From NCBI GenBank assembly GCA_018609825.1, contig JAHEOA010000258.1, forward strand, positions 1-24,933: a stretch of DNA of 24,933 nt, read 5' to 3'. Below, in pieces: positions 4,537 through 14,731 of the stretch (its first letter is position 1; each line of letters starts with the position of its first letter). Source of the DNA: Candidatus Bipolaricaulota bacterium. GTDB taxonomy: Bacteria > Bipolaricaulota > Bipolaricaulia > RBG-16-55-9. Both the position numbers and the translations under genes were made by a program. The notes beneath the pieces were generated by a model, which worked only from the letters and a program-made list of their open reading frames with translations, was not told the origin of the DNA and ran no database searches.

Positions 4537-5655
4537 TTACTGCGCGGCACCCACGCTCGTCGCGGCGTCCTCACCGGAGGCCCCGCCCTCCTGGTCGTCG
4601 CCGCCCTCCTCATCGTCGTCGAGGCCATGGTGGCCGTTGTGAGGCGGGCGTGTGGCCGCCAGCCCCGCCTGTTCCTTGATCTCGTTCTCCAGTCCATCGG
4701 CCAATTCCGGGTTGCCCTCGAGGTAGGCCGTCGCGTTGGTCAATCCCTGGCCGAGGCGCGTCTCGCCGTACGAATACCAAGCGCCCTTCTTCGCCACGAG
4801 CCCGTAGCGCTCGCCGAGCCGGACGAGCTCGCGCCCGCGCGGAATCCCTTTGCCGTAGATGATGTCGGTCTCCGCCTCGCGGAACGGCGGCGCCAGCTTG
4901 TTCTTGACGACCCTGATGCGCGTCTCGTTGCCGATTTTCTGCTTATCCCCGTCGGCGGCCTCCTCGATGCTGCCGACCCGCCGGATGTCGAGTCGGACCG
5001 AGGCGTAGAACTTGAGCGCCATGCCGCCGGAGGTCGTCTGCGAGGGGCCCCACGGCCCGCCGGCGTTGATGTTGGACCGCACCTGATTGATGAAGACGAC
5101 CGTCGTCTGGGATTGGCCGACGGCACTGGTCAGCTTGCGCATCGCCTGGCTCATGAGCCGCGCCTGCAAGCCGACCTGCTGTTCGCCCATGGCCCCGGTG
5201 ATCTCGGCCTCAGGCACCAGCGCGGCGACCGAGTCGACGACGACGAGATCGAGGCTGCCGCTGCGCACCAACTGCTCGGTGATCTCTAAGGCCTGTTCCC
5301 CCGAATTGGGCTGGCTGACGAGCACCTGATCCAGGTCAATGCCGATCGCCTCGGCGTAAGTCGGATCAAGCGCGTGTTCGGCGTCGATGAAGCCGGCCGT
5401 GCCCTTCTGCTTCTGGGCCTCGGCAATGAAGTGCAGGGCCAGCGTCGTCTTGCCGGACGACTCGGGCCCATAGACCTCGACGACGCGGCCGCGCGGAATG
5501 CCGCCGATCCCGAGCGCCACGTCGAGCGATAGAGACCCCGACGGGATGACGGGGATATTCTGGCGCCCGGACTCGCCCAACCACATGATGGCGCCTTCAC
5601 CGTATTGCTTGCGAATCTGCGTCAATACCGTGTCAAGCACGTCTTGCTTTCCCAT
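4537..5655 (-). CDS. recA: RecA recombinase
   Basis: The 372-residue protein starts at 5655 with AGGAG 8 nt upstream and follows lexA by 11 nt, so the two are co-transcribed. Walker A GPESSGKT is at 63-70, the catalytic region near FIDAEHALD at 89-97, Walker [13 protein letters not shown] around 135-146, and the MAW-like VRLDIRR near 220. RecA forms ATP-dependent filaments on single-stranded DNA, drives strand exchange and triggers LexA self-cleavage. The L2 DNA-binding loop (about 193-211) is unusual: the common IGVMFGNPETTxGG stretch is replaced by [16 protein letters not shown], two residues longer. The C-terminal 40 residues are acidic, as is usual. Identity is certain; whether it is the host's only RecA is unknown. 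Confidence 0.97.
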
Positions 5656-5666
5656 CGGTGTCTCCT

Positions 5667-6329
5667 TTATCGCTCGTGGAACAGTCGGCGGGTGTGCGAC
5701 GCGCCGAACCGGCGCACCACGCCGAGGGCCACGCCGACGATGCGCACGTCATCGGCCACGATCGGTTGGTAGTTCGGGTTGGCCGGCTCCAGCACGACCT
5801 GATCGCCCCGACGGTTGAAGCGCTTCACCGTCCCTTCCGGCTCGCCGTTGTCGACAATGGCCGCGACGATCTGGCCGCTATCCGCCGTCGGCTGGGGGCG
5901 CAAAACGACGAGGTCTCCCTCGAGAATGCCGGCCTCAACCATGCTGTCGCCCTCCACGCGCAACGCGAAGAGCTCGTCGTCGTTCGGAAACAGATCCTGC
6001 AGGTCGAGGACCTCTTCGATGTTCGCCTCCGCCAGAATCGGCGACCCGGCGGCCACGCGCCCGACCACCGGAATGCCCATCCGCTGCCAGAACACCTTGC
6101 GCACGTTCTCCCAGATGAGCTCAACGCCGCGGGCCAAGCGCTCCCGCCGGCGGATGTAGCCCTTCTTCTCCAACGCCTCCAGATACCGTTGGACCGAGCC
6201 GGGCGAGGCGTAGCCGAAGTGGTCAGCCATCTCCTGAATCGTCGGCGCCGTTCCCTGTTCCTCGCGATAGTCGAGAATGAATTCCAAGAACCGCACCTGC
6301 TTTTCCGTCAGCGAACTCGGCATGGGCAT
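5667..6329 (-). CDS. lexA: LexA SOS repressor (S24 peptidase)
   Basis: Starting at ATG 6329 gives 220 residues; ATG 6323 (MPSSL) is a second candidate. The N-terminal winged helix runs about 5-65 ([15 protein letters not shown], then [32 protein letters not shown]). The self-cleavage bond is Ala94-Gly95 in GRVAAGSP, the catalytic serine S129 in GDSM and the lysine K169 in VKRF, with typical spacing. LexA represses repair genes until RecA filaments promote its cleavage. The gene heads a lexA-recA operon, an efficient self-regulating arrangement. The start follows a strong promoter so closely that the mRNA may be nearly leaderless. Its operator in this organism cannot be fixed from the window alone. 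Confidence 0.96.
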
Positions 6330-12485: not shown

Positions 12486-12646
12486 GGCGTTCCCTTGTTC
12501 CATGCGACCATTCGCTCCGTGCTTATCCACACTAAGCGGCAAACAAGCGGGCGTACACGCCAGCTGGCCAACTCGATGACGCGGCCTGTCCGGTGGACAC
12601 CGGCCATGGGCGAACTCGACCCACAACGGTACGATCACGAGGACCG
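12486..12646. promoter_or_regulatory. Divergent nth-ligA promoter region with a DnaA-box match
   Basis: TTATCCACA at 12523-12531 equals the strong DnaA-box consensus. GGCGTACACGCC, a near-palindrome, follows near 12549. No clear sigma-70 promoter was identified on either strand. A single DnaA box may be chance or a regulatory site. Confidence 0.35.
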
Positions 12647-14731
12647 ATGAGCGACAGCGACCTGATCCCGCAGATCGATCTCAACGAGAGTTTCGCCCAC
12701 GACACTGCCGAGGCTGCGGCGGAGGAGCTGCGCGCGGCCATCCGGTATCACGACCGCCGCTATTACGTCTACGACGATCCCGCCATTCCCGACGCCGACT
12801 ACGACATGCTCTTTGCCCAACTGGTCGAGCTGGAGCGCCGCTACCCGGAACTGCGCACCCCGGACTCGCCCACCCAGCGGGTCGGCGGCGGACCGCAGGA
12901 CGAACTCGACTTGGTCGAACACCCCGTTCCGATGCTGAGCCTGCGGCCCGTCTACGAGGCCGACGAGGTGCGTCGCTTTGACGAGATCTGCCGGGGGGAA
13001 CTCGGCCGGTCGGCGGTGACCTACCTGGCGGAGCCGAAGTACGACGGCCTGGCCGTGGAGCTGATCTTCGAGAACGGCCGATTGACGCTCGCGGCCACCC
13101 GCGGCGACGGCCAAACCGGGGAGGACATCACGGCCAACGTCCAGACCATCGCCGAGGTCCCGCTGCGATTAATGGAGGGAGAGGCCGGCCCCCCGCCCGA
13201 TCGGCTCGTCGTCCGCGGCGAGGCCTACATGCGCGTCGACGAGTTCGAAGCGCTCAACGCCCGACTCATCGACGCCGGCGAGAGCCCGTTCGCCAACCCG
13301 CGCAACGCGGCGGCCGGCTCCCTGCGCCAGCTCAACCCGACCGTGGCCGCCCAGCGCCCGCTGCACCTCTTCATCTACGACGTTGCCGAGGGCGCGAGCG
13401 CGGACGTCAACTCTCAATGGAAGCTGCTACAGGCACTACGCGACTGGGGACTGCGGGTCAACGTGGAGCGGATTCGACCATGTGAGGGCATCGACGCGAT
13501 GCTGGCCTACCATCGGGAGCTGGGCGAGGCCCGCGACGAGCTGCCCTACGAGATCGACGGGGTCGTCTACAAGGTCGACCATCGCAATGACCGCCAGGTC
13601 CTCGGCACGCGCTCGCGCGATCCACGCTGGGCCCTGGCGTACAAGTTCCCCGCCCGGCGGGCAATGACCCGTGTGGCGAGCATCCAAGTCCAGGTCGGTC
13701 GCCTCGGCACGCTCACCCCGGTCGCCCACCTCGAGCCCACCCAACTGGGCGGCGTCGAGGTGAGCCGGGCGTCGCTGCACAATCAGAGCGAGGTCGACCG
13801 TAAGGACATTCGGGTTGGGGACACCGTCGCCGTGGAGCGTGCCGGCGACGTCATCCCCCAGGTGGTGGCGACGCGACCGGCCGAACGCGACGGGAGCGAA
13901 CGTCGGTTCCGCATGCCCGCCCATTGCCCGGCGTGCGGCGCCGAGGTCGTCATGAGCGAGGACCGCAAGACGACGCGCTGCCCCAACATCAGCTGCCCAG
14001 CCCAGCTCCAGGAGCGGCTGATTCATGTCGCCTCCCGCGACGCGCTGGACATCGAGGGGCTCGGGCAGCGGCGCGTGCGCCAGCTCTACGAGGCCGGGCT
14101 GCTGACGAGCTTGGAAGCGCTGTTCCAGCTGACCGCGGACGACCTCGTGCCGCTGGAGGGCTTCGCCGAAACGTCCGCGCACAACCTGATCGCCGAGATC
14201 GAGACCAGCAAGGCGACCACACTCGCCCGGTTCCTCTATGCGCTCGGCATCCCGCACGTCGGGCTCCACGTTGCCCGGCTGCTGGCCCAAGGGTTCGCGA
14301 TGCTGGACGAGGTCATGGCCGCCTCCGAGCCCGACCTCCTGGCCATCGACGGGATCGGGCCGGAGGTGGCCAAGAGCGTGGAGACGTTCTTCGCCGACAA
14401 CCGCAACCGAGCGACCGTCACCGCCCTGCAGGACACGGGGCTGAGCTTATCCAATCCGCTGTTCTCCACCGCCGAGACGGATCGGCCGTTGGAGGGCCTG
14501 ACGTTCGTCTTCACTGGGCGTCTGGAGCGCTGGAGCCGCGAGGAAGTCGAACGCCTGGTGGAGCGCGCCGGCGGCCGGGCCACCTCGAGCGTCAGCGACC
14601 GGACGGACTTCCTGGTGGCCGGCCCGGAAGCCGGATCCAAACGCGCTCAGGCCGAGGCGCGCGGCGTGCGCATTCTGGACGAGGCCGGCTTCCATGGACT
14701 CCTCGAGGCCCACGGTGTGGCTTGGGAGTAA
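12647..14731 (+). CDS. ligA: NAD-dependent DNA ligase LigA
   Basis: From ATG 12647 ([14 protein letters not shown] close upstream) the protein has 694 residues, slightly longer than usual because of about 20 extra N-terminal residues. Domain Ia has [20 protein letters not shown]. The adenylated Lys131 lies in [11 protein letters not shown]. An OB fold follows ([17 protein letters not shown]). The zinc finger is CPACGAE...[10 protein letters not shown], then the helix-hairpin-helix repeats ([17 protein letters not shown] and [13 protein letters not shown]), and finally a BRCT domain (about 616-694, [20 protein letters not shown]). It seals nicks using NAD+. It is essential when it is the only ligase, so its presence beside plasmid-type partition genes is notable. 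All landmarks are intact. Confidence 0.97.

Follow-up and report, generated by a model that had tools for sequence, protein, structure and literature searches.

A candidate octamer-repeat partition locus beside a cluster of DNA repair genes on a contig from an uncultured Bipolaricaulota-like bacterium

Introduction

Basic repair genes usually sit on chromosomes. When lexA, recA, ligA and other repair genes are found next to a partition locus, does the DNA come from a chromosome or from a separately segregating replicon? This question is raised by the contig studied here, from an uncultured Bipolaricaulota-like bacterium, which was analyzed over its apparently entire length of 24,933 nt (hereafter the window); the protein database gives 24,933 bases for the contig that encodes its ligase. 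A first-pass annotation of this DNA had placed plasmid-type maintenance genes and a repair cluster on a probable secondary replicon. On the evidence below, the chances seem to us evenly balanced that the contig is part of a secondary replicon kept at low copy number, either a large plasmid or a chromid, and such an origin is rated as somewhat more likely than the chromosome. The reading frame of an XRE/HTH_3 regulator (1-307, minus strand) runs off the left contig edge, so the window is a fragment whose parent unit either exceeds 25 kb or is permuted; a terminal overlap between the two contig ends was sought and not found. Gene identities were assigned by Pfam and NCBIfam profile scans of the open reading frames (ORFs) in the window.

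Results

A candidate plasmid-type partition locus

The partition genes reported at the left of the window were borne out, in a stronger form than had been claimed: parA is accompanied by an overlapping gene for a ribbon-helix-helix (RHH)-like protein and by an array of octamers resembling parH. The features of this locus are as follows.

1864..2277, minus strand: small RHH-like protein of 137 amino acids (aa), candidate centromere-binding protein; 29-nt overlap with the end of parA
2249..3049, minus strand: parA, Walker-type partition ATPase of 266 aa (AAA_31, E 4e-52; phrog_164, ParA-like, 2e-57; ParA/Soj structures)
3062..3545, strandless: centromere-like region of degenerate 8-bp repeats (MCRG box plus four bases), in two runs directly upstream of parA

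An AGGAGG sequence sits 4 nt ahead of the parA start. The octamer repeats, which were observed directly, fill the approximately 490 bp between parA and a divergent DUF488 gene, and fall into a run of 19 octamers (3062-3213) and a run of 30 octamers (3304-3545) that are about 90 bp apart and mutually out of phase. When repeated words were counted in the parA-DUF488 gap, 69 pairs of 7-mers were found compared with 26.6 in shuffles (0 of 200 shuffles were as high); among nine other gaps tested, 18770-19105 was high too, and 6340-6648 and 1-900 were slightly high (8-mers). The lag spectrum of the parA-DUF488 gap gave z values of 6.4-7.6 at lags of 8, 16, 24, 32, 40, and 48, weaker peaks appeared at 20 and 28, and most remaining lags lay near or below zero. 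The summed excess for period 8 was 496.7, compared with a maximum of 84.7 among 500 shuffles; periods 5, 7, 11, and 13 did not rise, and period 10 showed a small excess (62, p 0.008). Moreover, when all 300-bp intervals of the contig were scanned, the top 20 for period 8 began at 2926-3401.

In the run at 3304-3545, position 2 of the octamer is C in 26/31 and position 4 is G in 26/30; in the run at 3062-3213, the corresponding counts are 16/19 and 15/19. These biases define the repeat unit as a degenerate MCRG box followed by four loose bases, and an 8-bp period is incompatible with a reading frame. A repeat consensus drawn up post hoc matched 201 sites in the window with up to 3 mismatches, compared with 145 in shuffles; of the 200 sites shown, 30 lie within 3042-3548, a stretch whose length predicts about 4. 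The octamer runs constitute a concrete centromere candidate.

In the 137-aa protein, a strand-helix-helix pattern was recognized by eye at residues ~60-110, in the second half of the protein. A weak match to PSK_trans_fac (E 0.015) was obtained, and a low-confidence model built from the single sequence (pLDDT 55), judged too weak for a fold search, placed helices at residues 69-86 and 92-109. A Spo0J-type ParB was also sought beside parA, but neither the flanking ORFs (1864-2277 and 3499-3993) nor the other ORFs scanned match any ParB family, and in this the locus differs from chromosomal Soj-Spo0J systems, in which a helix-turn-helix (HTH) ParB (Spo0J) gene adjoins parA.

The parA gene, the RHH-like gene, and the octamers together resemble a nearly complete plasmid-type partition locus of the parH-like kind known from TP228. 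As judged from sequence, the anatomy of the locus is of the same kind as in TP228 and pSM19035, with the RHH partner as a candidate. The TP228 box and spacer presumably also add up to 8 bp. In passages of PMC7308502, TP228 parH consists of degenerate tetramer boxes separated by AT-rich spacers; the RHH protein ParG coats it and stimulates ParF with its flexible tails. Judged by these passages, the window shares with parFGH the degenerate boxes with spacers and a ParA-type ATPase, with a candidate RHH partner here in the place of the flexible-tailed RHH protein there. The window departs from TP228 in having GC-rich MCRG boxes, a ParA that is closer to Soj than to ParF, and a partner whose RHH nature is putative. 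According to parts of PMC9499535, the RHH ParB of pSM19035 binds short contiguous 7-bp repeats that overlap the par promoters, which, to the extent covered there, makes delta-omega-parS similar to the window in its short contiguous repeats near par, with the partner here only a candidate. The two differ in that the repeats are 7-bp WATCACW in pSM19035 and 8 bp here, and their ParA proteins are only distantly similar (37 bits). A ParA-family ATPase and an array of 7-8 bp repeats near par, as in RHH-type ParABS systems, were thus both found; assignment to this type stays provisional because the RHH fold is a prediction and the proteins closest to ParA are of the Soj type.

Six intact repair genes and a glycosylase remnant

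The first-pass annotation had also described a repair cluster of about 10 kb (lexA-recA, FAN1, a glycosylase remnant, PolX, endonuclease III, and LigA), and the profile scans confirmed it at these positions:

4537..5655, minus strand: recA, Bipolaricaulota-type (PF00154, E 4e-120)
5667..~6329, minus strand: lexA (protease domain PF00717, 5e-30; DNA-binding domain PF01726, 1e-16; LexA structures, best E 2e-33)
6650..8299, minus strand: FAN1-type nuclease of 549 aa (FAN1_HTH, 8e-27; VRR_NUC, 7e-21; FANC_SAP, 6e-8; 4r89, E 6e-81)
8865..9254, plus strand: methylpurine DNA glycosylase (MPG) remnant (PF02245, 1e-23, profile positions 65-177 of 181 only)
9796..11562, plus strand: PolX with HHH, Pol beta thumb, and PHP domains (Pfam; 3au2, E 9.5e-143)
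11853..12503, minus strand: endonuclease III (nth), between PolX and ligA (HhH-GPD, PF00730, 5e-24; C-x6-C-x2-C-x5-C)
12647..14731, plus strand: ligA, NAD-dependent DNA ligase (Pfam, 1e-83; KYDG; cysteines 426, 429, 444, and 449)

This gene order was read directly, as was the adjacency of lexA and recA, which are separated by 11 nt in an operon-like arrangement. Expected motifs were likewise observed directly in the six full-length genes: GPESSGKT in RecA, AAG, GDSM, and VKRF in LexA, PD-x12-EVK in FAN1, KYDG in LigA, GVGRKTA and the iron-sulfur cysteines in Nth, and VDLR in PolX; we take these motifs to have the functional meaning usually attached to them. The palm residues of PolX align with Thermus PolX, and a pattern search for the palm motif alone gave no match. 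The N-terminal third of the glycosylase was not seen in the three upstream frames read by eye.

FAN1 membership was assigned on the HTH, SAP, and VRR_NUC domains together with the catalytic motif, all of which are present. The bacterial FAN1 structures 4r89 and 5y7g, which we take to be from P. aeruginosa, share with the window protein the same domains over nearly the full length and the PD...EVK nuclease motif; unlike them, the window FAN1 comes from an uncultured lineage, non-proteobacterial by RecA, and is 69-71% conserved in three relatives. For FAN1 orthologues including that of Pseudomonas, processing of 5' flaps is reported in part of PMC4103454.

A 53-aa frame starting with MCGRF (8303-8464, minus strand) ends 3 nt before FAN1; its interpretation as an SRAP remnant was rejected, with no Pfam match at E<=1. 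Two frames at ~300-840, considered as a broken glyoxalase-type gene, also gave no match and were dismissed. DUF488 proteins are encoded twice, at about 3559-3993 (plus strand) beside the par repeats and at 9257-9724 (minus strand) between the glycosylase remnant and PolX.

An SOS box common to the repair promoters was not supported: allowing one mismatch at most, GAAC-N4-GTTC occurred 8 times compared with 8.65 expected, and no LexA operator was identified in this search of the window.

Lineage of the repair genes

Six relatives of the window RecA were found at 98-89% identity; all others among the matches listed are at or below 76%, among them P0247-P0250 at 71-76%. Organisms were named in 10 of the 120 RecA rows listed, and 10/10 belong to the Bipolaricaulota/Acetothermia group, to which we assume that Acetithermum and HR07 belong. 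In a tree built by a quick method, the window and its six relatives form one clade (support 98) inside a 29-row clade (support 97) that contains an Acetothermia protein. By its RecA sequence, the contig is placed near Bipolaricaulota/Acetothermia. No close RecA was found in twelve other genomes (at most 63%). Two differing Bipolaricaulota RecA proteins, P0316 and P0344, apparently lie on one 489,262-bp contig and fall into two sister clades, which suggests a RecA duplication in part of the Bipolaricaulota.

The three FAN1 relatives at 69-71% are followed by a drop to 48% or less among the matches listed, and the organism-named FAN1 rows listed are, presumably, gammaproteobacterial genera, except for one KSB1. 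A midpoint-rooted tree was built from 48 selected rows; in it, the window protein and the three relatives group together in a single clade (100/100), with Aeromonas proteins as neighbors (95/97).

LigA has one relative at 82%, and the remaining matches listed are at or below 62%. A Chloroflexota origin, prompted by the labels on four LigA rows, was rejected by a genome sample and by the LigA tree. Of 400 genomes drawn from the phylum to which an Anaerolineae genome belongs, 347 had LigA matches, and no listed match exceeded 49%; the tree placed the best 120 LigA rows on one side of a branch (support 100) opposite 26 other ligases (11 from the 16 foreign ligA loci described below and 15 from the Anaerolineae-phylum sample). 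FAN1 was matched in 1/301 genomes of the same phylum, weakly (E 1e-4). The LigA subfamily formed by these 120 rows is divergent and carries conflicting labels (Chloroflexota group, 4; Bipolaricaulaceae, 1; Thorarchaeota, 1). A viral origin of this subfamily was rejected, as the best LigA in viral contigs reached 45% and that in phages 43%; plain LigA and ParA scans for viral relatives found none.

Rarity and linkage of the repair cluster

The surroundings of ligA were compared with 16 ligA loci of other genomes, taken from a scan of GTDB genomes that are not close relatives. When the loci (3.9-22 kb, so that some flanks are short) were searched with the window proteins (tblastn, E<=1e-6), RecA, LexA, FAN1, MPG, and PolX were found near ligA in 0/16 and Nth in 1/16 (L003). 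A repair-rich ligA neighborhood is not common; the comparison supports only this much, because the stored flanks are unequal and the genomes are not close relatives.

In relatives, if contigs of equal size are taken as one, the best foreign LigA and the best foreign FAN1 both lie on a 23,056-base contig, and another FAN1 and a 91% RecA both lie on a 75,417-base contig, so that on this premise at least two of the gene pairs recur. Against full synteny, none of the 120 listed LigA proteins is on the 75,417-base contig and none of the 120 listed RecA proteins is on the 23,056-base contig; contig ends may explain these absences.

Precedents on plasmids

Relatives of the repair proteins do occur on plasmids. 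In PLSDB, RecA relatives were found in 349 records at E<=1e-50 (86 typed conjugative), LigA relatives in 225 at E<=1e-5 (23 conjugative), PolX relatives in 36 at E<=1e-20 (6 conjugative), and FAN1 relatives in 14 at E<=1e-5; several replicons among the matches listed exceed 1 million bases. ParA relatives were found in at least 5000 records, the best listed at 44%.

According to parts of PMC2669436, Deinococcus deserti has additional recA genes on two plasmids, P1 and P3, and a further NAD-dependent ligase whose locus tag is that of a P1 gene. If the window derives from a secondary replicon, the two cases, as far as those parts go, are alike in having recA and an NAD-dependent ligase outside their usual place; they differ in that the D. 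deserti copies add to chromosomal ones and that the window has FAN1, PolX, and Nth together with lexA-recA. A plasmid shared by recA and ligA is therefore not new; this repair set next to octamer repeats in this lineage did not turn up among the literature matches listed. Among the matches listed in a literature search by title, no title dealt with a plasmid or partition system of Bipolaricaulota/Acetothermia, and a term search of the main text of PMC6092417, on a complete Acetothermia genome, gave 0 occurrences of 'plasmid'.

Genes at the right of the window

The remaining recognizable genes are listed below.

15576..16736, plus strand: AAA_16/STAND-like ATPase (PF13191, 1e-9; PF20703, 6e-7)
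17309..18205, minus strand: RecD2 N-terminal piece of 298 aa, OB and HHH (PF23139, PF14490)
20070..21140, plus strand: HTH protein with weak replication-initiator-like similarity (phrog_678, E 0.003; phrog_186, E 0.006)
23675..24070, plus strand: HTH_17 protein, putative PIN partner (PF12728, 2e-10); 23-nt frame overlap with the PIN gene
24048..24548, plus strand: VapC-type PIN ribonuclease (TIGR00028, 3e-22, above cut-off)

The PIN toxin predicted at this end stands, as a VapC-type protein recognized by TIGR00028. The RecD2 module is RecD2 in identity, but it is not intact: only the N-terminal piece is present, and inspection of the three minus-strand frames by eye revealed no helicase part. 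The gene described as replication-like is present as well, while its identity as an initiator rests on weak O-like/DnaD-like matches and on a model of low confidence (pLDDT 59) that was too weak for a fold search; repeats ahead of it were rejected, with no excess of repeated words. No solved relative was found for the AAA/STAND-like ATPase, upstream of which a 14-bp repeat stands in two perfect tandem copies (15502-15529).

Two divergent small paralogues, orfA and orfB (18206-18766, minus strand, and 19110-19424, plus strand), belong to no Pfam family and are 33% identical over 76 aa. Between them, upstream of orfA-recD2N, the palindrome AGCACWNWGTGCT (AGCAC-WNW-GTGCT) occurs in two exact copies (18781-18793 and 18877-18889). 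It was rejected as a shared site, being exact only at these two places, both ahead of orfA-recD2N, with a count at 2 mismatches equal to chance. Finally, a lone LexA-type DNA-binding domain of 87 aa without a protease is encoded at 24553-24816 (minus strand) and is 34% identical to the window LexA over 47 aa.

Discussion

Several observations favor a secondary replicon in addition to the partition locus. The third-codon-position GC content (GC3) of parA and of the RHH-like, Rep-like, orfA, and orfB genes is 0.66-0.77; each of the six intact repair genes has a higher value (0.80-0.89), in groups chosen afterwards. No tRNA and no Rfam match was found in tRNA and Rfam RNA searches of the window, and no core operon was recognized among its 25 kb in the ORF profile scans. 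The overlap of the HTH and VapC genes was also counted for a secondary replicon, and the remnants (MPG, RecD2, and the LexA N-terminal domain) are compatible with a plastic replicon.

Other observations weigh against this origin. Soj proteins are among the solved structures closest to ParA (173-142 bits), and TP228 ParF and pSM19035 delta score 39 and 37. The 137-aa protein has no significant family match, no plausible solved relative, and a poor model, and PLSDB contained no relative of it or of the Rep-like protein. GC3 is 0.85-0.89 in the HTH-VapC pair and in the AAA gene, as high as in the repair genes, which blurs the division into backbone and cargo. The ORFs scanned held no convincing Rep and no relaxase, and the contig ends gave no circle. 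By sequence, RecA falls among named Bipolaricaulota proteins, where a chromosomal copy would be expected. On 25 kb, chromosomal repair genes adjoined by an integrated plasmid would present the same picture. A megablast search of PLSDB with 4537-14731 gave no match, a result that is either unfavorable or neutral. Of the claim of plasmid-type maintenance genes on a probable secondary replicon, the maintenance genes have thus held, in the form of the par locus; the replicon itself stays a candidate on a fragment with non-overlapping ends, a weak Rep, and a Soj-like ParA.

The strongest alternative is that the contig belongs to the main chromosome, where resident repair genes clustered in the lineage would lie beside a par locus that is an orphan or of chromosomal type, or beside the scar left by a plasmid that had integrated. 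We consider this a substantial possibility, though one that falls short of an even chance. It accords with the RecA placement (the 7-row clade within the 29-row clade, and all ten named rows of the 120), with the Soj-type relatives of ParA, and with a FAN1 that is old in the lineage (4 rows, with three at 69-71% to the window, in the 100/100 clade). FAN1 and RecA relatives that apparently share the 75,417-bp contig also imply a linkage exceeding a small plasmid. A chromosomal origin is harder to reconcile with octamer runs upstream of parA and an RHH-like partner in place of an adjacent Spo0J-type ParB, with 25 kb in which no tRNA, Rfam RNA, or core operon was recognized, and with the lower GC3 of the five backbone-like genes.

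The first-pass annotation had offered a mobile DNA-damage tolerance package as one interpretation, and this was not supported. A small self-transmissible package is improbable in our estimate, even though a par locus, a VapC-type protein, and repair cargo share a single contig and PLSDB holds recA, ligA, and polX relatives of which some are typed conjugative. General family scans of the ORFs found no relaxase, mating-pair, or conjugation family in the window, which is itself a fragment; the repair block had no PLSDB megablast match; RecA looks resident; the truncated XRE-type frame implies a unit that exceeds 25 kb or is permuted; and the best LigA identities in viral contigs and phages are those given above. 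A mis-assembly that fused a chromosomal repair stretch with unrelated mobile DNA is very improbable: two GC3 classes do exist, but low- and high-GC3 genes are interleaved along the contig, and the FAN1-LigA and FAN1-RecA linkages recur elsewhere, taking same-sized contigs as one.

If the contig does come from a low-copy secondary replicon, it could work as follows. In the manner of pSM19035 and TP228, dimers of the small protein would coat the octamers, its unstructured N-terminal tail would stimulate ParA, and ParA would carry the replicon across the nucleoid, with the HTH-VapC pair possibly adding post-segregational stability. The cargo would be the repair set, in which the lexA-recA operon would sense damage and derepress SOS genes, the FAN1 nuclease may handle 5' flaps as well as cross-links, and Nth, PolX, and LigA could form a base-excision path that cuts, fills, and seals.

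A bolder proposal, which we regard as doubtful, is that the contig belongs to a chromid with an octamer-array centromere that holds the host's only recA, lexA, and ligA, the lineage having shifted core SOS and ligation genes onto a plasmid-derived replicon. If this were true, the replicon would thereby have become indispensable. A replicon carrying lexA-recA, FAN1, PolX, Nth, and LigA beside a segregation locus would illustrate how a plasmid turns indispensable in a little-studied lineage.

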